49,884 nucleotides of DNA from positions 1 to 49,884 of the forward strand of contig JANXXL010000283.1 of the NCBI GenBank assembly GCA_025350625.1. Direction: 5' to 3'. The stretch is from Bryobacterales bacterium. Its GTDB lineage: Bacteria; Acidobacteriota; Terriglobia; Bryobacterales; Bryobacteraceae. Each line of letters begins with the position of its first letter. The stretch's first letter is position 1. Positions 8,531 to 16,524 of this stretch are shown piece by piece. The notes below the pieces were generated by a model. It ran no database searches, was not told the origin of the DNA, and saw nothing but the letters and a program-made list of their open reading frames with translations. The translations under genes and the position numbers were made by a program.

Positions 8531-9691
8531 TTGTCCCAGCGGCCTGAGCTTGATCTCCTAATCGCCTGCGCATTACCGGCGGGATGTCGTGAAACCGGCT
8601 CGCGAGTTCGAGCCGCGCTCGGTGTCCCCCTGGACTGGAACAGGGTTCGGGAACTCGGCGCCTATCATAGAGTCCGGCCTCTGCTCTATGAGCGGCTGAC
8701 GAAGTACGCGGCCGATGCCGTCCCTGCAAACGTGGCCGCCGAACTTGCCTCCGAATTTCGCAGCGGAGTAGCTCGCAGCCTCTATCTAACCGGAGAGCTG
8801 GTCCGTCTGACGAAAGCGTTCGCAGCGGTAAACATTCCGGTGCTCCCCCACAAAGGGCCAGTACTGGCACAAACCGCCTATGGCGATTTGGCTCTGCGTG
8901 AGTTCTCCGACCTGGATTTGCTGATCCATTCGTCCGATTTGCCTGCGGCGATCAAACTCCTGGAAGAGTGCGGTTTTTTGCCGCCTCCGGACTTGGCGTG
9001 GCTGTCCCCTCAGGCTTTGCTCCGCTGGACCTGGGAGACGTCTTACACTTCAGCCAGCGGGGTTTCCGTCGATCTTCACTGGAGACTAACGCCACCCCAT
9101 TACACGGTTCAACTCGATCCGGACATCCTCTGGAATCATCGGGCCTCCATTACAATCGCCGGATCCGCGCTGCCGTCGATCACGCCCGAAGCGATGTTAC
9201 TGCTGCTCGCGGTGCATGGCGGGAAACACTGCTGGGAGGCGTTGGGCTGGCTGGCGGACATAGCCTGGCTGCTCGACGCGAATCCTAAACTCGACTGGCA
9301 GCTCGCCTGGAAACTGGCCGGTGATACAAAATGCCATCGCCCGCTCCTGCTCGCTTTATCCCTGGTGGCGCAGCTCTTCGACGCCAACGTTCCGAAGCTG
9401 GGAAGCGATCCGTTGGCCGGCAAGCTGCGGCAGCGAGTCATGGCTCGCCTTTACCAGGGGCCAATCGAGACTCCGCGTTCGCCTGAGCTGTTTTCCTTCG
9501 CCGCGACGCTCGCCCGCCAACGCAGCGATTCCTTAAAACATTTGCTGGGCGTTGTGTTTCATCCCACGGAAATCGACTGGAAAGAGCGGCGCCTGCCCGA
9601 TTCCCGGTTTTGGCTCTACACTCCGGCGCGGCTCGCGCGGCTCTGCGGGAAATACCTGCGAAGAAAAACATCATCGAGTGAACGCACCTAG
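8531..9691 (+). CDS. Nucleotidyltransferase family protein (PF14907 type)
   Basis: A 386-residue cytosolic protein beginning at a TTG; no ATG lies near the start and upstream codons in frame give no better choice. The diagnostic block is PVLPHKGPVLAQTAYGDLAL followed by REFSDLDLLI, about residues 100-135; the acidic DLDLL pair is the likely metal-binding site of a minimal nucleotidyltransferase fold. A second family hallmark is AVHGGKHCWEALGWLADIAW, about residue 220-240. Members occur in lasso-peptide and related RiPP clusters together with HPr-kinase-like and PqqD-like genes; the pseudomycoidin cluster member (PsmN) is the best-known case. Those same partners lie 3.4-5 kb downstream here, separated by a large secreted-protein gene, so membership in that system is plausible but not shown by operon structure. 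Confidence 0.75.
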   Translation: MSQRPELDLLIACALPAGCRETGSRVRAALGVPLDWNRVRELGAYHRVRPLLYERLTKYAADAVPANVAAELASEFRSGVARSLYLTGELVRLTKAFAAVNIPVLPHKGPVLAQTAYGDLALREFSDLDLLIHSSDLPAAIKLLEECGFLPPPDLAWLSPQALLRWTWETSYTSASGVSVDLHWRLTPPHYTVQLDPDILWNHRASITIAGSALPSITPEAMLLLLAVHGGKHCWEALGWLADIAWLLDANPKLDWQLAWKLAGDTKCHRPLLLALSLVAQLFDANVPKLGSDPLAGKLRQRVMARLYQGPIETPRSPELFSFAATLARQRSDSLKHLLGVVFHPTEIDWKERRLPDSRFWLYTPARLARLCGKYLRRKTSSSERT

Positions 9692-9786: not shown

Positions 9787-9815
9787 TTGACTCATCCTCC
9801 GACCGATGTTAACCT
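9787..9815 (+). promoter_or_regulatory. Candidate sigma-70 promoter for the large secreted protein
   Basis: TTGACT at 9787-9792 and TAACCT at 9810-9815 are separated by 17 bases. The predicted transcript begins near 9822 and has a leader of about 100 bases containing a CCTC-TCGGAG-GAGG hairpin-like sequence at 9835-9848. The -35 is strong and the -10 moderate. Confidence 0.45.
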
Positions 9816-9919
9816 CGAACCACTTTCGCACCTCTCGGAGGAGGATGTATTACATCTATGGTGCCCACAGGATTGGCCCGCCCGCTCACCCAAACTCTCG
9901 TCAGTGGAGATTTTCGTTT

Positions 9920-12844
9920 ATGAATCGCAAAAATTGCATTCCGGTATCGCTGGCCGCGCTGGCGTTTATCGCGGCCCCAGCCGTTGGGCAAAACAATGCT
10001 CCCGGCGTGCCGTACGACTGGAGCCATCATCACGTAATATTCAGTCCACCGAGCACCCAGGAGCAGCAGACCGGCGCGACTGCCGATCGCCGCTATTTGC
10101 ATCAATGGACATACCGCAATTTGCAGCACACAGCGCCTGACGAACAGGACTCGATCAACGGCCAAGTCCACACTGCCGTGAGTTCGGGCGCGCCGCCCGC
10201 CGCGAGTTCCAACGCCGCACTCAGTGCTACACCCAGCGCCTTAAAGACCAGGAAAATCAATAACGGCCTGTGGGAGATGAATATGGGCGCCGGTGCTACT
10301 GTCGGCCAAGGCAACTATCCTGCAAAGTTCTCCTTTACCACTTCTTCCGCTTTGTGTGCAGGCGCCCCGCAGCCGGACTTTGTAGTTTATAACACTGGAT
10401 TGGTGGGTTTAAACACCAGTCAAGCAACCATCATCGCGTTTGACAACCTGTATAGCGGTTGCACTGTTACTCGTACGGGGCTGCACATCACCGCCAATAG
10501 CGGGAGCACCTCCATAGGCTACAGCGCGGGCGTGATCACGACTGCGGATATAGGGTCGACGATCACGGATACGACCTCGGGCCACAGCTTCATACCCGCA
10601 GGCACCACCATTACGGCAGTGACCACACCCGTTGCGGCATCGCTCACTTCGAACAGCTTTAACTCCACGACCACGACGGCGAATTTTGGACAAACGATCT
10701 CGGTAAACGGGGTTACGCTGACGGCAAACACGGCTCGGGCAGAAGTGAATCGGATAGGCTTCGGCGGTACCGCTCCAAGCAATAATGCCTCAGTTACTGT
10801 TGCGGGAATCGCATATGTTTTTAAGACGGCCAATTGGACGTCGGGCACCGAAGGCGCTTCACAATGCTTTATTCGGACAAGCGCCACCACAAGCAATATG
10901 GTTTCCTGGTTGGCCTCGGCGATCACAACTGGCGCTGCTAACACCGGATCGAGCACCAACACGTGGGAGTGTAACGCTGCCAGCGGCTCGCAGCCAAGCG
11001 CAGGTGTTACGGTGACTGGCAGCACAAGTCCCAACGTGGACGTAACGGCCAAAATCGTAGGAGCCACCGGGTTCACGGCAACTTCAACTGGGACTAATGC
11101 GCCGAGCGTCTCAATCACCCTCACCGGCTCGGATGCAGTCAACGCGGGCGCTACATTCTTCACGGTATGGTCCGGAGCTGCGGGTGTCAGCGCCGCGACG
11201 CTGGGCGCGAACATCGTTACCGCCATCAATAACAATTCCGCCACCACGCTTTCAACGGCGGCGCTCGCGGGGGCCGGTCCATTCACGATCACGGTCACCG
11301 CGTCCACTCCCGGCACCGCTGGGAACGGTATCAACGTGGGGAGCACGTTCACGGGATTCTCATGGCCAGCGCCTGGACATCTCCAAAACGGTGTCGATGG
11401 CGCTACGATCAGTAACGCCACTACGGGCGCTATCGTTGCCACCGACAGCATCACGATCACGCCGCCGGCCGGCAAGGTTCCGAACGTCTTCTGGTCCTAC
11501 AACACCGACACCTCGGGCACAGACAATTCCAAGATTTCAACTTCGGTAATTCTCTCACTGGACGGTTCTCAGGTCGCTTTCGTCCATAGCAACGCCAGTG
11601 GATCGAGCCTGGTCCTTCTAAACTGGAAAGCCGGTGACGGTGTGCCGGCGGGCAGCGCCACCAATGCCGCTTCTGCGGCCGTGAAGCCCGCCAATCAGTA
11701 CGCCGCAGGCGCAGCATCAAGCTACATAGCGTGCGCGGCGAACACCTCCTGCCAGCTCACGCTTCCATTTAGCGGCACCACGGCGAACGTTACCCGTTCC
11801 TCGCCTTTTGTCAACTACAATACCGGCGAACTCTACGTTGGCGACGACAACGGTGTGCTCCACAAGTTTGTCAATATTTTCAATGGCGGCATTCCTGCCG
11901 AGGTGACCACGGGAGGATGGCCATTGACGGTGAGCTCAGCGGCCGGGACCGGCAAGATACTCACATCGGCCGTTCTTGACCTGGGTACTCACAACATTTA
12001 CGTGGCAGATTTCGCCGGAGTGCTGCGGTTCGTGAAGGACGTTGGCAGTACCTTAGGAAGTTGCGCTGCCGGCAGCCCGCCATGTCTTGCCTCCGCCACA
12101 CAGACCCCCGGAGGACCGATCGTCGAGGGCCCCATGATCGATTCAACGACGCAAAGAGTTTTCGCGTCTACAGGCGTGACTGGCGCCATAGCATCCTACA
12201 AAATCTTTCAAACGGATGAGGCTTTAACCACCGCGCAGAATAAGTCGATCACCTTCGCAGGCGCGAGCGGAAGGAGCTACAATTCTTATCCTCACTTGGG
12301 CGCCTTCGATAACATCTACTATGCGACTGGCGTCTCCAGCGGTCACTTATACTTTTGCGCGCCGGATACCAGCGGCAGTTTCTTCAATGCCGCCACCCTT
12401 TACCAAATTGGCTTCAACGCTTCAGGGGTGATGAATACCTCTACGGGCGGGAGTTTGACGATGCAAAGCCCGTCGGTTGCAAATGGCGCCAGTGTGGACG
12501 ATTGTTCGCCCCTCACAGAATTTTACAACGGTACGACCGACTTCCTATACGCTGGCGTGGCACAAAACGGAAATATAACTGGCTGCGCGGGTAGTACCAC
12601 GAATGGCTGCCTCTACAACTTCGATATCACGAGCGGGACAATGCCCAGCGATTCGGTTGCCGGGAGAGTCTCGGCGGCGGGGACCAGCGGCATCGTGATC
12701 GACAATACAGCTTCGTCGGGAGGTTCCCAGATCTACTTTACCCCGCTAGCCGACAGTGTTTGCACCGGTGTGTCCCCCCCTGGTGCTCCCGGTAATGGGA
12801 CTGGGGGTTGCGCAACGCAGGCGACCCAGGCCGCTCTGAATTAG
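9920..12844 (+). CDS. Large secreted Thr/Ser/Gly-rich repeat protein
   Basis: The ATG at 9920 has TGGAGA upstream and is followed by a good signal peptide (MNRKNCIPVSLAALAFIAAP); a start at 9806 would add a non-signal N-terminus and is rejected. The ~974-residue protein has a low-complexity first third. Then come two related beta-rich repeat units of roughly 100 residues around positions 270-520, with matching phrases such as VSWLASAIT and LGANIVTAINNN, each following a GFTA/ATFF-type strand. The last third (YVGDDNGVLHKFVNIFNGG, VLDLGTHNIYVADFAGVLRF) looks like beta-propeller repeats. Paired Cys residues suggest an extracytoplasmic, disulfide-stabilised protein. No PEP-CTERM, LPXTG or autotransporter tail is seen. 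Its function is unknown. It sits between the nucleotidyltransferase and the RiPP-like operon and ends 45 bases before the precursor gene. Confidence 0.72.
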   Translation: MNRKNCIPVSLAALAFIAAPAVGQNNAPGVPYDWSHHHVIFSPPSTQEQQTGATADRRYLHQWTYRNLQHTAPDEQDSINGQVHTAVSSGAPPAASSNAALSATPSALKTRKINNGLWEMNMGAGATVGQGNYPAKFSFTTSSALCAGAPQPDFVVYNTGLVGLNTSQATIIAFDNLYSGCTVTRTGLHITANSGSTSIGYSAGVITTADIGSTITDTTSGHSFIPAGTTITAVTTPVAASLTSNSFNSTTTTANFGQTISVNGVTLTANTARAEVNRIGFGGTAPSNNASVTVAGIAYVFKTANWTSGTEGASQCFIRTSATTSNMVSWLASAITTGAANTGSSTNTWECNAASGSQPSAGVTVTGSTSPNVDVTAKIVGATGFTATSTGTNAPSVSITLTGSDAVNAGATFFTVWSGAAGVSAATLGANIVTAINNNSATTLSTAALAGAGPFTITVTASTPGTAGNGINVGSTFTGFSWPAPGHLQNGVDGATISNATTGAIVATDSITITPPAGKVPNVFWSYNTDTSGTDNSKISTSVILSLDGSQVAFVHSNASGSSLVLLNWKAGDGVPAGSATNAASAAVKPANQYAAGAASSYIACAANTSCQLTLPFSGTTANVTRSSPFVNYNTGELYVGDDNGVLHKFVNIFNGGIPAEVTTGGWPLTVSSAAGTGKILTSAVLDLGTHNIYVADFAGVLRFVKDVGSTLGSCAAGSPPCLASATQTPGGPIVEGPMIDSTTQRVFASTGVTGAIASYKIFQTDEALTTAQNKSITFAGASGRSYNSYPHLGAFDNIYYATGVSSGHLYFCAPDTSGSFFNAATLYQIGFNASGVMNTSTGGSLTMQSPSVANGASVDDCSPLTEFYNGTTDFLYAGVAQNGNITGCAGSTTNGCLYNFDITSGTMPSDSVAGRVSAAGTSGIVIDNTASSGGSQIYFTPLADSVCTGVSPPGAPGNGTGGCATQATQAALN

Positions 12845-12889: not shown

Positions 12890-13066
12890 ATGAAAACACC
12901 GCAGTCAAACTACGAACCGATCCACGATCCCAGGGTCGCGGGCGTCAAGAAGCCCTATCAGAAGCCGACCTTCCGCTTCGAGAGGACTTTTGAAACTCGG
13001 GCGCTTACCTGCGGGAAGATCCAAAGCACCCAGGGTTCGTGCCATTTCAACCGGAACGCATCCTAG
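12890..13066 (+). CDS. Putative RiPP precursor peptide (58 residues)
   Basis: A small gene opening the operon. Its ATG at 12890 has GAGG about 12 bases upstream, and its TAG is 10 bases before the protease gene. The peptide splits into a charged leader and a short tail: residues 20-28 read KKPYQKPTF, followed by RFERTFETRALT, then CGKIQSTQGSCHFNRNAS. YQKPTF fits the YxxPx(L/F) motif that PqqD-like recognition elements bind in lasso-peptide leaders, and Thr40 sits two residues before Gly42, like the leader-core junction there. The probable core has two Cys (41, 51), no Asp or Glu, and a C-terminal Ser58. Neighbouring radical SAM/SPASM and PqqD-like genes support precursor status. Modification type and cleavage site are inference. 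Nothing in the window is a second copy. Confidence 0.72.
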   Translation: MKTPQSNYEPIHDPRVAGVKKPYQKPTFRFERTFETRALTCGKIQSTQGSCHFNRNAS

Positions 13067-13076
13067 CGTACGAAGC

Positions 13077-13520
13077 ATGACAGACCTGCACACATCGGCG
13101 AAATGCGACCTCCTGGCGGAAGTGGCCCGGAATATCGGGCACGCGCGCGTGCAGGTCACCGGCTTCAGTATGCTCCCGGCGATCTGGCCCGGAGATGTGC
13201 TCACTGTCGAGCATCACACTCATTCGCAATTCCGCCAAGGACAGATCGCAGTGTTCGCGCGCGACGGCGGGCTGGTGGCGCACCGCGTGATCCGGGCAGA
13301 CGGTTTGATGGTGGTCACGCGAGGCGATAGCCTCCCGGTCGCGGATGTGCCCGTGCGCCCCGAAGAGGTGATTGGGCGGGTGTCGGTAATTGTTCGCAAC
13401 GGCCGCGATGTGGCTGTCGAGCAATCGCTTTCCCAACGGATGCTGGGATTGTTTTTGCAGCGGTCGGATGTGGCGTTGCGGACGCTGCTCCGCCTAAGGA
13501 GGCTGGTGTGGGCAGCATAG
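13077..13520 (+). CDS. Soluble S24/S26 (signal-peptidase-like) Ser-His protease of the RiPP operon
   Basis: The start at 13077, 10 bases after the precursor stop, is preferred over an in-frame ATG at 12990 that overlaps the precursor. The 147-residue protein carries the signal peptidase boxes in order: VTGFSMLPAIWPGD (nucleophile Ser31), RQGQIAVF, and VAHRVIRADG, where His69 occupies the place of the general-base Lys, followed by VTRGDSLP. A Ser-His pair is typical of the SipW/Sec11 branch. There is no N-terminal membrane anchor, so it would work in the cytoplasm, unlike ordinary type I signal peptidases. In this context the likeliest job is cutting the leader from the modified precursor. Its 3' end overlaps the kinase gene by 13 bases. 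Confidence 0.72.
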   Translation: MTDLHTSAKCDLLAEVARNIGHARVQVTGFSMLPAIWPGDVLTVEHHTHSQFRQGQIAVFARDGGLVAHRVIRADGLMVVTRGDSLPVADVPVRPEEVIGRVSVIVRNGRDVAVEQSLSQRMLGLFLQRSDVALRTLLRLRRLVWAA

Positions 13521-14323
13521 CTTCCACTTTCGCGCTGCCTATTGAGATCGGCGGGATCCCTATTTTGGTGCGCACCGATAGCCCGGAGTTCGCCGAAATT
13601 CTTGAACAGCGCTATGGCGGCTATATCAATTTCTCGGCCCAGCCGCTGTTCACGTTCGATGTGGAGATTGTCGAACCTTCGACAGGCGCCGACGCGGATG
13701 CCGCAGCGACGGTGCGGTACGAGGAGGGCCGTTGGATCATCGAACGCGGCGACTTTTACGCGGAGTGGAATCCGCAGGCAAAGCACGGGTGCATCCGGCA
13801 GGCGCTCTATCCGTATGCCATTGACGCGGCTTTGCGCATCTTGCACTCGCTGCTGCTGGCCAGTCAGGGCGGCTTGCTTATGCACGCCGCGAGCGCCGTG
13901 CGCAACGGACGGGCGTTTTTGTTCGCCGGCGTTTCCGAGGCCGGCAAGACCACCATGTCGCGGCTGGCTCCGCCCGACGCTACGCTGCTTACCGACGAGA
14001 TTTCTTATTTGCGTCCGAATAGCGATGGGACGGGCTACCTCGCCTATGGCACGCCGTTCGCGGGGGAGCTGGCCGAGCCGGGCGCCAACATCCGCGCGCC
14101 TTTGGCGGGGATTTTTTTGCTCGGCAAAGGCCCGGAAAACCGTATCGAGCCGGTGGGCGAGGGCGAAGCGGCGCGCGCGGTGCTCGCGAACATTTTGTTT
14201 TTCGCGCACGATGCAGAGTTAGTGGGCAAGGTATTCGATACCGCCTGCCGCGTGGCCCGCACGGTGCCGGTGCAACGTTTGACATTCTTCCCGGACGCTC
14301 GGGTATGGGGCTTAATCCAATGA
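13508..14323 (+). CDS. HPr kinase-related protein (HprK-like) of the RiPP operon
   Basis: The gene starts at a GTG inside the end of the protease gene and ends overlapping the PqqD-like gene. The 271-residue protein has HAASAVRNGRAFLFAG leading into a Walker A loop GVSEAGKTT (about 141-149). An acidic segment LLTDEISYL (about 161-169) follows, then GTPFAGE, IFLLGKGPEN and a C-terminal helix: the layout of HprK C-terminal-domain relatives. True HprK phosphorylates Ser46 of HPr. In paeninodin-type lasso clusters, relatives of this size phosphorylate the C-terminal Ser of the precursor, and the precursor here also ends in Ser. Family annotations also describe an HprK-related kinase paired with a PqqD-like chaperone. 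A role in peptide phosphorylation is therefore the leading inference; the protein could instead only bind nucleotide. Confidence 0.75.
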   Translation: MGSIASTFALPIEIGGIPILVRTDSPEFAEILEQRYGGYINFSAQPLFTFDVEIVEPSTGADADAAATVRYEEGRWIIERGDFYAEWNPQAKHGCIRQALYPYAIDAALRILHSLLLASQGGLLMHAASAVRNGRAFLFAGVSEAGKTTMSRLAPPDATLLTDEISYLRPNSDGTGYLAYGTPFAGELAEPGANIRAPLAGIFLLGKGPENRIEPVGEGEAARAVLANILFFAHDAELVGKVFDTACRVARTVPVQRLTFFPDARVWGLIQ

Positions 14324-14619
14324 CAGCTTGCTACATCGCTCGTTCTTCCCAGGTGGCCGCTCGCATGATCGGCGGCGAAATGATGATTATGTCAGCGAAG
14401 GACAGCACGCTGTTCAATCTGAACGAAGTCGCTTCCGCGATATGGAACGCAGCCGATGGCGCCACGCCGCTGGCGGAAATCGTGCAACGCGCGGTGTGCT
14501 CTGAGTATGAGGTTCCGCCTCCGCAGGCGATCGAAGAGGCCGAGGCGTTTGTGCACGAGTTGTCCGAGCACGGAATCTTGATGGTCTCCGGCCAGCCCAT
14601 CGCGGGTGCACCCAAATGA
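14320..14619 (+). CDS. PqqD family RiPP recognition element
   Basis: The ATG at 14320 forms an ATGA overlap with the kinase stop and is preferred over the ATG at 14305. About 99 residues with the PqqD winged-helix pattern: an N-terminal strand region (ARMIGGEMMIMSAKDSTLFN), LNEVASAIWNAADGATPLAE as the conserved helix-turn, and a terminal HELSEHGILM helix. PqqD-type proteins bind the leader of a precursor peptide and deliver it to the modifying enzyme, usually a radical SAM protein. Its start and end both overlap neighbours by four bases, so its product is probably made in step with the kinase and radical SAM enzyme. It would be expected to bind the YQKPTF-containing leader of the 58-residue precursor. 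Confidence 0.85.
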   Translation: MTACYIARSSQVAARMIGGEMMIMSAKDSTLFNLNEVASAIWNAADGATPLAEIVQRAVCSEYEVPPPQAIEEAEAFVHELSEHGILMVSGQPIAGAPK

Positions 14620-15731
14620 ACCTGATGGACGAGCTGGGCTCGCGCGCCTTGAAGCTGGGCATCCCGCTGAGCGCGCATCTGGACCTCACTTACCGCTGTA
14701 ACGAGCGCTGCGTTCATTGCTACCTGGATCACGACGATCACGGCGAAATGACCACCGCCGAAATCAAGAGTGTGCTGGATCAAATGGCCGAAGCGGGCGT
14801 CCTGTTCCTGGTGCTGAGCGGCGGCGAAGTTTTCATGCGCCGCGACTTCTTCGAGTTGCTGGAATACGCCCGCTCGCTCCTGTTCAGCGTCAAGATCAAG
14901 ACCAACGCGGTGATGATCGGCGACAAGGAAGCGGACCGTCTGGCGCGCGCCGGCGTCGAGGCCGTGCAAGTGAGTGTGTACTCCGCCCGGCACGACGTAC
15001 ATGATGAAATCACCAAGCTTCCGGGGTCGCTGAAGCGCACTATCCAGGGAATGCGGCGGCTGCGCGAGCGCGGCGTGAAGGTGATTTTCGCTAACGTTTT
15101 GATGCAGCGCAATTATGGAGATTATCCTGGCGTGAAGGCGCTGGCTGCGGAGCTGGGAGCGGAATATACTATCGATCCCACGATCACGCCGATGATGGAT
15201 GGCGACCGTTCGATCCTGCAACTGGGGTTGCGTGCGCAGGAATTGGAAGAAGTGTTCCGCAATTCCGAACTGGTGGGCGATGTGGCCGAGTTTTGCGCCC
15301 CTCCGCAGGAAGTGGGCGACGATATTTTGAACGGGCTCCCCTGCAGCGCCGGACACAATGCGTGCTATATCTCGCCTTACGGCGAAGTGTTTCCGTGTGT
15401 GCAATTTCCCCTACCGAGCGGAAACCTGCGGCAACAGAAATTTATCGACATCTGGCGCGATTCGCCACAGCTGCAGGAAGTCCGCGCGATCACGGCGCGG
15501 CAGTTGCCGACATGTTCGACTTGTTCCCACGTCGGAACCTGCTCGCGGTGTCCGGGACTGGCTTACCAGGAAGGCAACATGCGCGGGCCGTCGAGTCAGG
15601 ATTGTGAGAAATCCTACCTGCGCACCGGTGTGGTCACAGCAGGAATGCTCGCCCGCAAGCCTAACGCCGCAGCGGTGTCCACGCTAGTGCAAATTCGCGG
15701 CGTCAACATGACCGGTCTCCAGCACGCCTGA
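14616..15731 (+). CDS. Radical SAM/SPASM peptide maturase (PqqE-like)
   Basis: The ATGA overlap with the PqqD-like gene fixes the start. The 371-residue enzyme has the radical SAM cluster motif CNERCVHC (Cys28, Cys32, Cys35) and VLSGGEVFMRRDF as the GGE SAM-binding motif. A C-terminal SPASM domain has the Cys pattern LPCSAGHNAC, GEVFPCVQFP, TCSTCSHVGTCSRCPGLA and a final QDCEKS, enough for one or two auxiliary iron-sulfur clusters. PqqE-like enzymes use the 5'-deoxyadenosyl radical to make C-C or C-S crosslinks in ribosomal peptides. The precursor has two Cys, Lys43 and several Thr/Gln in the likely core, so a thioether or a C-C crosslink are both possible. It is the last gene of the operon, and a convergent methyltransferase gene ends 12 bases beyond. 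Confidence 0.88.
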   Translation: MNLMDELGSRALKLGIPLSAHLDLTYRCNERCVHCYLDHDDHGEMTTAEIKSVLDQMAEAGVLFLVLSGGEVFMRRDFFELLEYARSLLFSVKIKTNAVMIGDKEADRLARAGVEAVQVSVYSARHDVHDEITKLPGSLKRTIQGMRRLRERGVKVIFANVLMQRNYGDYPGVKALAAELGAEYTIDPTITPMMDGDRSILQLGLRAQELEEVFRNSELVGDVAEFCAPPQEVGDDILNGLPCSAGHNACYISPYGEVFPCVQFPLPSGNLRQQKFIDIWRDSPQLQEVRAITARQLPTCSTCSHVGTCSRCPGLAYQEGNMRGPSSQDCEKSYLRTGVVTAGMLARKPNAAAVSTLVQIRGVNMTGLQHA

Positions 15732-15743
15732 GAGCGATCTGCT

Positions 15744-16439
15744 TCAGACCGATCGATACAACGCGCGGTATGCATTTTCCTCGACCTTGCGAAGCCATGT
15801 TTCGCCTCGAACGCACTGGTCGAATTCTGCTTGATTGAACGCAATCACGAATAAGTCACGCGGGTGCAAGACGTGGGACTGGCGCATCCGCTCCACCACT
15901 TCCACCAGTGTCCAGCCGATGAAGGAGTTGAAAAGGAAAAACACATTGACATCGTCCGGCACCGGGAACGCGGCGGCGTCGGAATAGTGCACCTCCGCCC
16001 GAGCGGCGCGGCGGTGCTTCATCTGCGCGAGATTCTGGCGCGCAATCGCAACCAGCTCGGCCGATATTTCTACGCCGATCACTTTCCGGAAGGGCCGCGC
16101 TGCGGCGCATACCAGTGCCCGTCCCTTGCCGGCGCCGTAATCGAGAAACACTACTTGAGAATCGGGGAAAGGGATCTCCGGCAGAGCGCGCCTCAGGTGT
16201 TCATAGCCCAGGGCAGCGTAGGCTTGAGCATCGGGATTCTGGATGCCGAGTTCTTCAGGCTCGATGAAGCCGGAGGTGGACACGCCGAATTTGCGCTCGC
16301 CATGCCAAGTGGCAATGCGGTGGTGGATCTGCTCCGCAAAACCACCTAAGCCGTAACTGCGGATGTAATCGAACGCCTTGCGCGGCCACCCGATGGCGAG
16401 CAAGCTCGGATTACCCTTCACGGTTGGCTCGGCATCCAT
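15744..16439 (-). CDS. SAM-dependent class I methyltransferase
   Basis: On the minus strand, about 231 residues from the ATG at 16439; an in-frame extension to 16508 has no ribosome-binding site. The Rossmann methyltransferase motif I is VVFLDYGAGKGRALV (about residue 100), motif II KVIGVEISAEL, and motif IV is near VNVFFLFNSFIGW. The N-terminal GFIEPEELGIQNPDAQAYAALGYE segment is common to small-molecule and peptide-linked class I methyltransferases of Acidobacteria. It converges on the radical SAM gene with only 12 bases between, so it is not co-transcribed with the RiPP operon. It could tailor the peptide or act on something unrelated. The substrate cannot be read from sequence. Confidence 0.7.
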   Translation of the reverse strand: MDAEPTVKGNPSLLAIGWPRKAFDYIRSYGLGGFAEQIHHRIATWHGERKFGVSTSGFIEPEELGIQNPDAQAYAALGYEHLRRALPEIPFPDSQVVFLDYGAGKGRALVCAAARPFRKVIGVEISAELVAIARQNLAQMKHRRAARAEVHYSDAAAFPVPDDVNVFFLFNSFIGWTLVEVVERMRQSHVLHPRDLFVIAFNQAEFDQCVRGETWLRKVEENAYRALYRSV

Positions 16440-16524
16440 TACTGAAATTCTACGCGAGGAGAGGCGTGAGCACGCGCGGGAGCAAGTAATAGCAATCCCA
16501 GTACTCACAATATTTTACCGTTAA

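Follow-up and report, generated by a model that had tools for sequence, protein, structure and literature searches.

A radical SAM gene cassette for a predicted RiPP in Acidobacteriota, probably related to linear polyphosphorylated and phosphorylated lasso peptide systems

A stretch of 49,884 nucleotides from a Bryobacterales bacterium (assembly GCA_025350625.1, contig JANXXL010000283.1, positions 1 to 49,884; hereafter the window) carries, at 12890-15731, a cassette for a ribosomally synthesised and post-translationally modified peptide (RiPP). With a probability of about 0.58, this cassette has its relatives in two groups to which it does not itself belong, linear polyphosphorylated peptides (LPP) and phosphorylated lasso peptides, and adds a radical S-adenosylmethionine (SAM)/SPASM enzyme to their set. 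Its gene order is kept among related loci, its precursors form a family with invariant residues, the catalytic residues of its enzymes are conserved, and no cyclase stands beside the cassettes.

The cassette lies on the forward strand and opens with a precursor gene of 58 codons for amino acids (12890-13066; ATG at 12890, stop at 13066). It is followed by a signal-peptidase-I-like (S24/S26) leader peptidase of 147 amino acids (13077-13520), assigned from family models and conserved Ser-His-Asp residues, and by an HprK/PEPCK-fold kinase of 271 amino acids with a GTG start (13508-14323), assigned from its fold and His-Lys-Asp residues. A PqqD-like RiPP recognition element (RRE) of 99 amino acids (14320-14619; PF05402, 2.5e-15) and a radical SAM/SPASM maturase of 371 amino acids (14616-15731; Radical_SAM 1.3e-23, SPASM 2.6e-11) complete the series. 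A gap of 10 bases separates precursor and peptidase, and overlaps of 13, 4 and 4 bases join peptidase to kinase, kinase to PqqD and PqqD to radical SAM gene. An earlier note on this DNA had described these five genes, their order and their spacing, and the open reading frame (ORF) coordinates agree with it throughout.

When the radical SAM protein served as query against genome contigs, 80 of 92 confirmed loci were taken up, at 57-69% identity, and together with the window they form a conservation sample of 81 stretches. The radical SAM gene occurs in 81/81 because its protein was the query. The order precursor-peptidase-kinase-PqqD-radical SAM is kept in 67 of the 81 stretches (window counted), the rearranged order kinase-PqqD-radical SAM-precursor-peptidase is found in one, and the cassette is incomplete in 13. 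Three of these 13 start at a contig end (L015, L068, L077), five have no detected precursor (L025, L026, L053, L057, L088), and from two both precursor and peptidase are missing (L062, L075); the kinase is present in 78/81. Since the order is kept in 67/81 stretches and the constant residues of the precursor are encoded by varying codons, the five-gene arrangement is real and not due to chance. Nine of the 80 loci are labelled Pseudomonadota (Thermomonas, Lysobacterales, Nevskia, Ramlibacter, Burkholderiales and similar) and the remainder Acidobacteriota. The earlier note had also proposed looking for precursor homologues near PqqD-HprK-radical SAM genes, and they exist: a profile of 12 precursors, searched in 396 genomes of the phylum and free of the radical SAM query bias because the search began from the precursor, matched in 17 genomes. 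Among the seven long-type matches that it found outside the window, five (L179, L180, L182, L183, L184) adjoin kinase, PqqD, peptidase and radical SAM genes.

Precursors were present in 72 stretches (window counted; L003 is the same contig as L022), and exclusion of the frameshifted L038 left 71 rows, which include the duplicate contig L003/L022, the near-identical L079/L080 and the cut L033. In the window, the leader (12890-12997) contains YQKPTF at 12956-12973 and FET at 12989-12997, while the core (12998-13063) reads RALTCGKIQSTQGSCHFNRNAS, with Cys codons at 13010-13012 and 13040-13042 and the C-terminal Ser codon at 13061-13063. The border after FET is a probable one, placed by analogy with LPP (PMC13381572). 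The leader consensus is YxKPxF...F(E/V)(T/V), with YxxP in 70/71 rows and a triplet of FET in 48, FVT in 15, FEV in 7 and FVI in 1. All 71 precursors end in Ser and all 71 have exactly two core Cys, which stand at positions 5/15 after the F-x-T triplet in 61 rows, 5/14 in 6, 5/16 in 3 and 5/17 in 1. Around the first core Cys, Ala (70/71) and Leu (69/71) come before, and Gly (68/71) and Lys (70/71) after, the Lys sitting two residues downstream (CxK). Among hydroxyl residues of the core, the C-terminal Ser alone is invariant; variation is free at many other places in the core, and 68 distinct 22-residue ends occur among the 71 rows. Across 69 loci, all four TCN codons are used for this Ser and all three stops follow it. 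The precursor is a conserved, constrained peptide family; the earlier note had named the lack of a conserved small peptide at this place as evidence that would speak against it, and the peptide proved to be there. Neither the window precursor nor four long relatives matched a known precursor family, and the precursor profile had no match among PDB sequences at an E-value of 10, though the PDB contains LPP and lasso leader complexes.

Catalytic residues of the enzymes are conserved. The window peptidase matches Peptidase_S24 (8.5e-7) and the archaeal-type signal peptidase model TIGR02228 (1.5e-13; 50.9 bits, just under the cut-off of 51.85), and its Ser31, His69, Asp84 and Asp90 are invariant in 61/61 aligned rows; the Ser-His protease of the earlier description is upheld. 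The kinase has the HprK/PEPCK superfamily fold with its His-Lys-Asp residues, HprK itself not being among the matches listed. Its best family model is TIGR04249 ScmC (4.7e-10), followed by HprK_rel_A (5e-5), all far under cut-off, and His126, the P-loop Lys147, Asp163 and Glu164 are invariant (His-Lys-Asp-Glu in 75/75 rows). The profile of the RRE family matches the lasso RREs TbiB1 (1e-7), PbaB1 (5.5e-6) and TfuB1 (3.6e-5), and also LppB (0.0027); its Asn35 aligns with LppB Asn33 and is Asn in 73/79 rows, and the position aligned with LppB Asp70 is Asp in 70/79 rows and Glu in the window. A second PqqD-like ORF lies upstream of the cassette in L018 (3577-3996) and L043 (4405-4791). In the radical SAM enzyme, the CxxxCxxC motif (Cys28, 32, 35) is conserved along with seven SPASM Cys: Cys261 is kept in 80/81 rows and the others in every row that reaches them. 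Its closest solved relatives by sequence are SkfB (1.3e-18), described as a sactisynthase, and then PqqE (9.6e-12).

Two further genes belong to the picture, and the same strand carries all seven from the first of them through the radical SAM enzyme: a nucleotidyltransferase (NTP_transf_5, 386 amino acids; 8531-9691, + strand; PF14907, 5.8e-61) and an exported beta-propeller-like protein (1012 amino acids as an ORF; 9806-12844, + strand; no Pfam match). Both recur in related loci, and the earlier parts list, correct in its five entries, had overlooked them. From these genes we infer a pathway, including the order of its steps. The PqqD-like RRE would grip the YxKPxF leader motif, and the HprK-like kinase would phosphorylate, perhaps repeatedly, the invariant C-terminal Ser. 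The radical SAM enzyme would attach either or both of the invariant Cys (CxK...C) to a further residue, a thioether being the likeliest bond; it is plausible that it replaces the cyclase as ring-maker. The nucleoside triphosphate (NTP) transferase may cap or glycosylate the phosphate, the signal-peptidase-like enzyme would cleave after F-E-T, and the product would be exported, through an ATP-binding cassette (ABC) exporter in some hosts, and would act with the exported beta-propeller protein in others. The C-terminal Ser is the candidate phosphosite because it is conserved and because paeninodin kinases act on such a residue, while core position 3 is Leu in 69/71 rows.

Several points weigh against this pathway, whose product chemistry is predicted. 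The candidacy of the C-terminal Ser derives from its conservation and from the paeninodin-type kinases, which, according to excerpts from the published report, target a C-terminal Ser and carry a His-Lys-Asp-Asp motif (PMC9266682); in the cassette kinases the second Asp of that motif is Glu, Asp-Asp being found in the divergent relatives L191 and L196. Excerpts from two other reports place phosphorylation at position 3: BsfK modifies the ring Ser3 (PMC10368454), and the LPP kinase adds several phosphates to core Ser3 (PMC13381572). In three loci (L009, L043, L073) the stretch holds an intact precursor that ends in Ser but no kinase; the peptidase is missing as well from L009 and PqqD from L073, with PqqD and/or radical SAM genes adjoining the precursor. 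Seven stretches uncut by a contig end have no detected precursor. In genome G501, a precursor (L181, 7131-7373, - strand) lies without machinery in a 14 kb stretch, and a kinase-PqqD-radical SAM set is on another contig (L211); in G312, a second precursor-like ORF (L185, 6708-7190) has lost the usual end. A kinase search at an E-value of 0.001 matched in 7/61 genomes (own included), strongly in the window, G039, G017 and G060 and weakly in three. The search covered 22 genomes of the same genus, among them G017, whose kinase is close to that of the window (L234, 6691-7611, - strand; 59% identical), with the other four genes absent in 10.2 kb. This lone kinase is probably a cassette remnant and, because G017 keeps it, gain and loss of the cassette look patchy.

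The radical step is open to the same kind of objection. The best family models of the maturase are NirJ2 (154 bits) and mycofactocin (140.5 bits), all far under cut-off; since the similarity to SkfB is also distant, the enzyme possibly catalyses another radical reaction, and the two core Cys could form a disulfide. A reading along these lines keeps the same RiPP cassette and assigns to the maturase a carbon-carbon or carbon-nitrogen cross-link, an epimerisation or a decarboxylation, with the Cys pair as a disulfide or metal-binding site. It gains from those best models, from PqqE among the solved relatives and from the Lys of CxK, nearly as conserved as the Cys (70/71), and loses by the presence of exactly two Cys in 71/71 long and 14/15 short or divergent cores and by SkfB as closest solved relative. 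On balance it is unlikely, and a thioether formed by the maturase is preferred.

The same kit could suggest a phosphorylated lasso peptide, with a cyclase encoded at another place or overlooked. A lasso-like leader, an RRE, a kinase and a nucleotidyltransferase are all present, some precursors lie apart from their machinery, and PF13471 (lasso B2) is found at an E-value of 0.001 in 59/232 genomes of the order. Against this, the window's own genome (G000; 89.2% complete, 5.5% contamination) has no PF13471 match. A B2 model, for which 29 ORFs from B2 loci were used, detects 40/41 control stretches (L119-L159) and, among 88 cassette-side loci and the window, matches solely in L082, about 5.5 kb beyond the cassette. 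A model of the Asn-synthase-like cyclase, built from 25 motif-picked ORFs of 24 B2 stretches and recognising 24/41 B2 stretches, matches none of the 88 loci and the window. Asp or Glu occurs in 13/71 cores, confined to positions 9-14 after the triplet, so that no ring acceptor is conserved at core positions 7-9 (two at position 9, none earlier), and the leader peptidase is a different one. A lasso peptide with a missed cyclase was accordingly rejected as highly improbable, and the earlier note's statements that the locus has no B2 protease, no asparagine-synthetase-like cyclase and no Asp/Glu ring acceptor hold.

The same note had seen the kit as lasso-style parts; it does not look taken over from lasso clusters of the same order. 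A tree of 46 kinases, made up of 30 cassette sequences and 16 that neighbour B2 genes in this order, with no Bacillota lasso or LPP kinases among them, splits the two sets by a 100/100 branch; derivation of the kit from lasso kinases of the same order is not supported. L133 stands on a very long branch of this tree. Nor is YxxP a lasso mark, because RREs of the FusE, McjB, PqqD and StsC groups bind W/Y/LxxP-type motifs, according to excerpts from an RRE survey (PMC12710340). Excerpts from the RRE-Finder study mention some 300 RREs of the lasso model that neighbour radical SAM enzymes, classed there as false positives of that model (PMC7470986). L133 (7512-10058) and L134 (7228-9838) carry another RiPP-like set, with a precursor leader FVPPKL or YSSPKL, a radical SAM enzyme and PqqD, adjoining a lasso-type B2 on the other strand; an HprK-like kinase was recognised in L133, and neither stretch has an Asn-synthase match (L133 ends at a contig end).

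A second, shorter precursor type has the consensus MKKPYEKPAIIHTEKIEARAVxCAKxDxxCxxxGPxTS and keeps YEKP, two Cys and the C-terminal Ser. A profile of nine short precursors matched in 52/396 genomes of the phylum at an E-value of 0.001, about 35 of them at 1e-10 or better, the weak matches counting as candidates. All 15 short or divergent precursors inspected (L119, L186-L196) end in Ser; the core Cys number two in 14/15 and three in L186, and CxK occurs in 12/15, the exceptions being L186 and both precursors of L188. Kinase, PqqD and radical SAM genes adjoin the precursors in L119, L186, L191 and L196; L192 has PqqD and radical SAM, and the three genes lie close to L188, in L220. In other genomes with short precursors, kinase-PqqD-radical SAM sets are located elsewhere (L213, L216, L217, L222) or kinases occur alone (L212, L214, L215, L218, L219, L221), with a weak peptidase match in L219. 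None of the NCBIfam precursor families was matched by nine short or divergent precursors. Exported Peptidase_C25 (gingipain-type) giants of about 1400-1500 amino acids are encoded beside short precursors in L191 (7066-11562), L192 (2581-6894, - strand) and L196 (7173-11363); the large neighbour of the L187 precursor is not a C25 peptidase.

Partner genes were counted in the 60 stretches that reach more than 1.5 kb to either side, where shared ancestry inflates the counts. The propeller protein adjoins the cassette in 33/60 (28 upstream, 5 downstream), and an ABC-2-type permease, paired with an ATPase, is directly upstream in 17/60. In those places the two are mutually exclusive (both 0/60, neither 10/60); in L029, a propeller adjoins the cassette and an ABC pair lies farther away on the other strand. 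A relative of the nucleotidyltransferase occurs anywhere in the stretch in 35/60. Judged by eye, translation of the window's propeller protein probably starts at 9920 and begins with a signal peptide. Its structure model has a mean predicted local distance difference test (pLDDT) score of only 58, with a better part at about residues 545-1010, and Foldseek gave propeller matches limited to the C-terminal half. An extra segment at 10466-11473 (about residues 221-556) is absent from most relatives. The C-terminal tail is conserved (GCAVQASQSALQ-like), as if a free C-terminus were recognised; at 12800-12844 it reads GGCATQATQAALN in the window and is GGCAVQASQSALQ-like in relatives.

These neighbours could be taken to mean that the product is attached to, or part of, the exported propeller protein or the C25 peptidase beside short precursors, and is not a free peptide. 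The propeller's adjacency in 33/60 loci, never together with the directly upstream ABC pair of 17/60, its conserved C-terminus and the C25 giants of L191, L192 and L196 are consistent with such a product. Weighed against them are the 10/60 loci without either adjacent partner, the lack of any conjugation enzyme among the genes seen, the L187 neighbour that is not a C25 peptidase, and the fact that co-location is not interaction; attachment is therefore improbable, and the free, exported peptide proposed above is retained.

Other features of the surroundings were also recorded. Downstream of the cassette, a methyltransferase gene (15744-16508, - strand) has no matched relatives in the other cassette loci, and a promoter and terminator scan gave no excess over shuffles. 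In the order of Thermomonas, the precursor occurs in 2/299 genomes, one of which was the search centre. A plasmid collection contained no match to the kinase; radical SAM matches in 21 of its records were all below 60% identity, and three such records that were inspected have no annotated kinase of the HprK-like kind. A block designated c10-c11-c10, which we take to be two related transporter-like ORFs (c10) flanking a LacI-like regulator, recurs downstream of the nucleotidyltransferase in L030, L035, L047, L056, L058, L059, L061, L062 and L069 (its first ORF is unclustered in L056). This recurrence suggests a fixed genomic site.

A fuller proposal is a distinct RiPP class of Acidobacteriota and a few Pseudomonadota, with a radical SAM cross-link at CxK...C, a C-terminal Ser that is (poly)phosphorylated and then nucleotidylated or glycosylated, long and short precursors, and an exported propeller or C25 partner. 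In this full form it is tentative, somewhat short of even odds, and there is a fair chance that knowledge of the product will justify treating the cassette as a class of its own. If the proposal is true, radical cross-linking and terminal-Ser (poly)phosphorylation, separate in the literature compared, would be joined in one pathway, and such a peptide family would be placed in Acidobacteriota, a common soil phylum. With a defined precursor, its set of invariant residues and an operon of five genes, the chemistry is directly testable in E. coli.

In the openly licensed PMC literature, no description of this gene combination was found, and each known system shares a part of it. The SynChlorMet (Scm) cassette of NCBIfam is matched weakly, by the kinase (ScmC, 39.3 bits against a cut-off of 125), PqqD (ScmD, 24.7 against 100) and radical SAM enzyme (ScmE, 100.5 against 400). 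Sactipeptides and ranthipeptides (SkfB, StsB, AlbA) likewise have a SPASM radical SAM enzyme and a short core that contains Cys, whereas the pairing of HprK-like kinase and signal-peptidase-like leader peptidase is not described for them in the excerpts of literature compared. Phosphorylated lasso peptides (paeninodin, pseudomycoidin, Bsf) share the RRE, HprK-like kinase, nucleotidyltransferase, Y/WxxP leader and a Thr near the cleavage site, and the C-terminal Ser that is the kinase target in paeninodin is invariant in the cassette precursors; they differ in having a B2 protease, a cyclase and a ring acceptor, and the cassette kinases form a clade apart from those near B2 genes in the same order.

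The nearest published system is LPP of Bacillota (May 2026; PMC13381572). According to excerpts from that report, LPP clusters combine a signal-peptidase-I-like peptidase, PqqD-type RRE, HprK-like kinase, NTP transferase and MsbA-like transporter with no cyclase; the leader motif is YxxPxVLxHQxIxFETxxS, and LppS (Ser29/His68/Asp93) requires the RRE and cuts after FET. The authors consider LPP linear and Bacillota-restricted, and the term 'radical SAM' is absent from the main text (PMC13381572). The cassette shares with LPP the Ser-His-Asp signal-peptidase-I-like peptidase (61/61 rows), the discrete RRE, the HprK-like kinase, the NTP transferase, the lack of a lasso-type cyclase and, going by the published motif, YxxP and FET in the leader. 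It differs in its radical SAM/SPASM maturase, in a core with two invariant Cys, Leu for Ser3 (69/71) and an invariant C-terminal Ser, and in an FET two residues closer to the Tyr; its partners are propeller or ABC proteins, no MsbA-like exporter was recognised in the seven-gene stretch of the window, and its hosts are Acidobacteriota and a few Pseudomonadota, not Bacillota. By the features tested (FET spacing, Leu3, the two Cys, the terminal Ser and the radical SAM enzyme) the cassette is not LPP, although its phosphorylation and leader removal appear to proceed as in LPP. The earlier note was thus right in part: its radical SAM RiPP, equipped with tailoring parts of lasso type and lacking a cyclase, is upheld, whereas the cyclase-less kit is not new, since LPP has been published. 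The kit of RRE, HprK-like kinase, nucleotidyltransferase and signal-peptidase-like enzyme also occurs outside Bacillota, the phylum to which the excerpted LPP report confines that system (PMC13381572).

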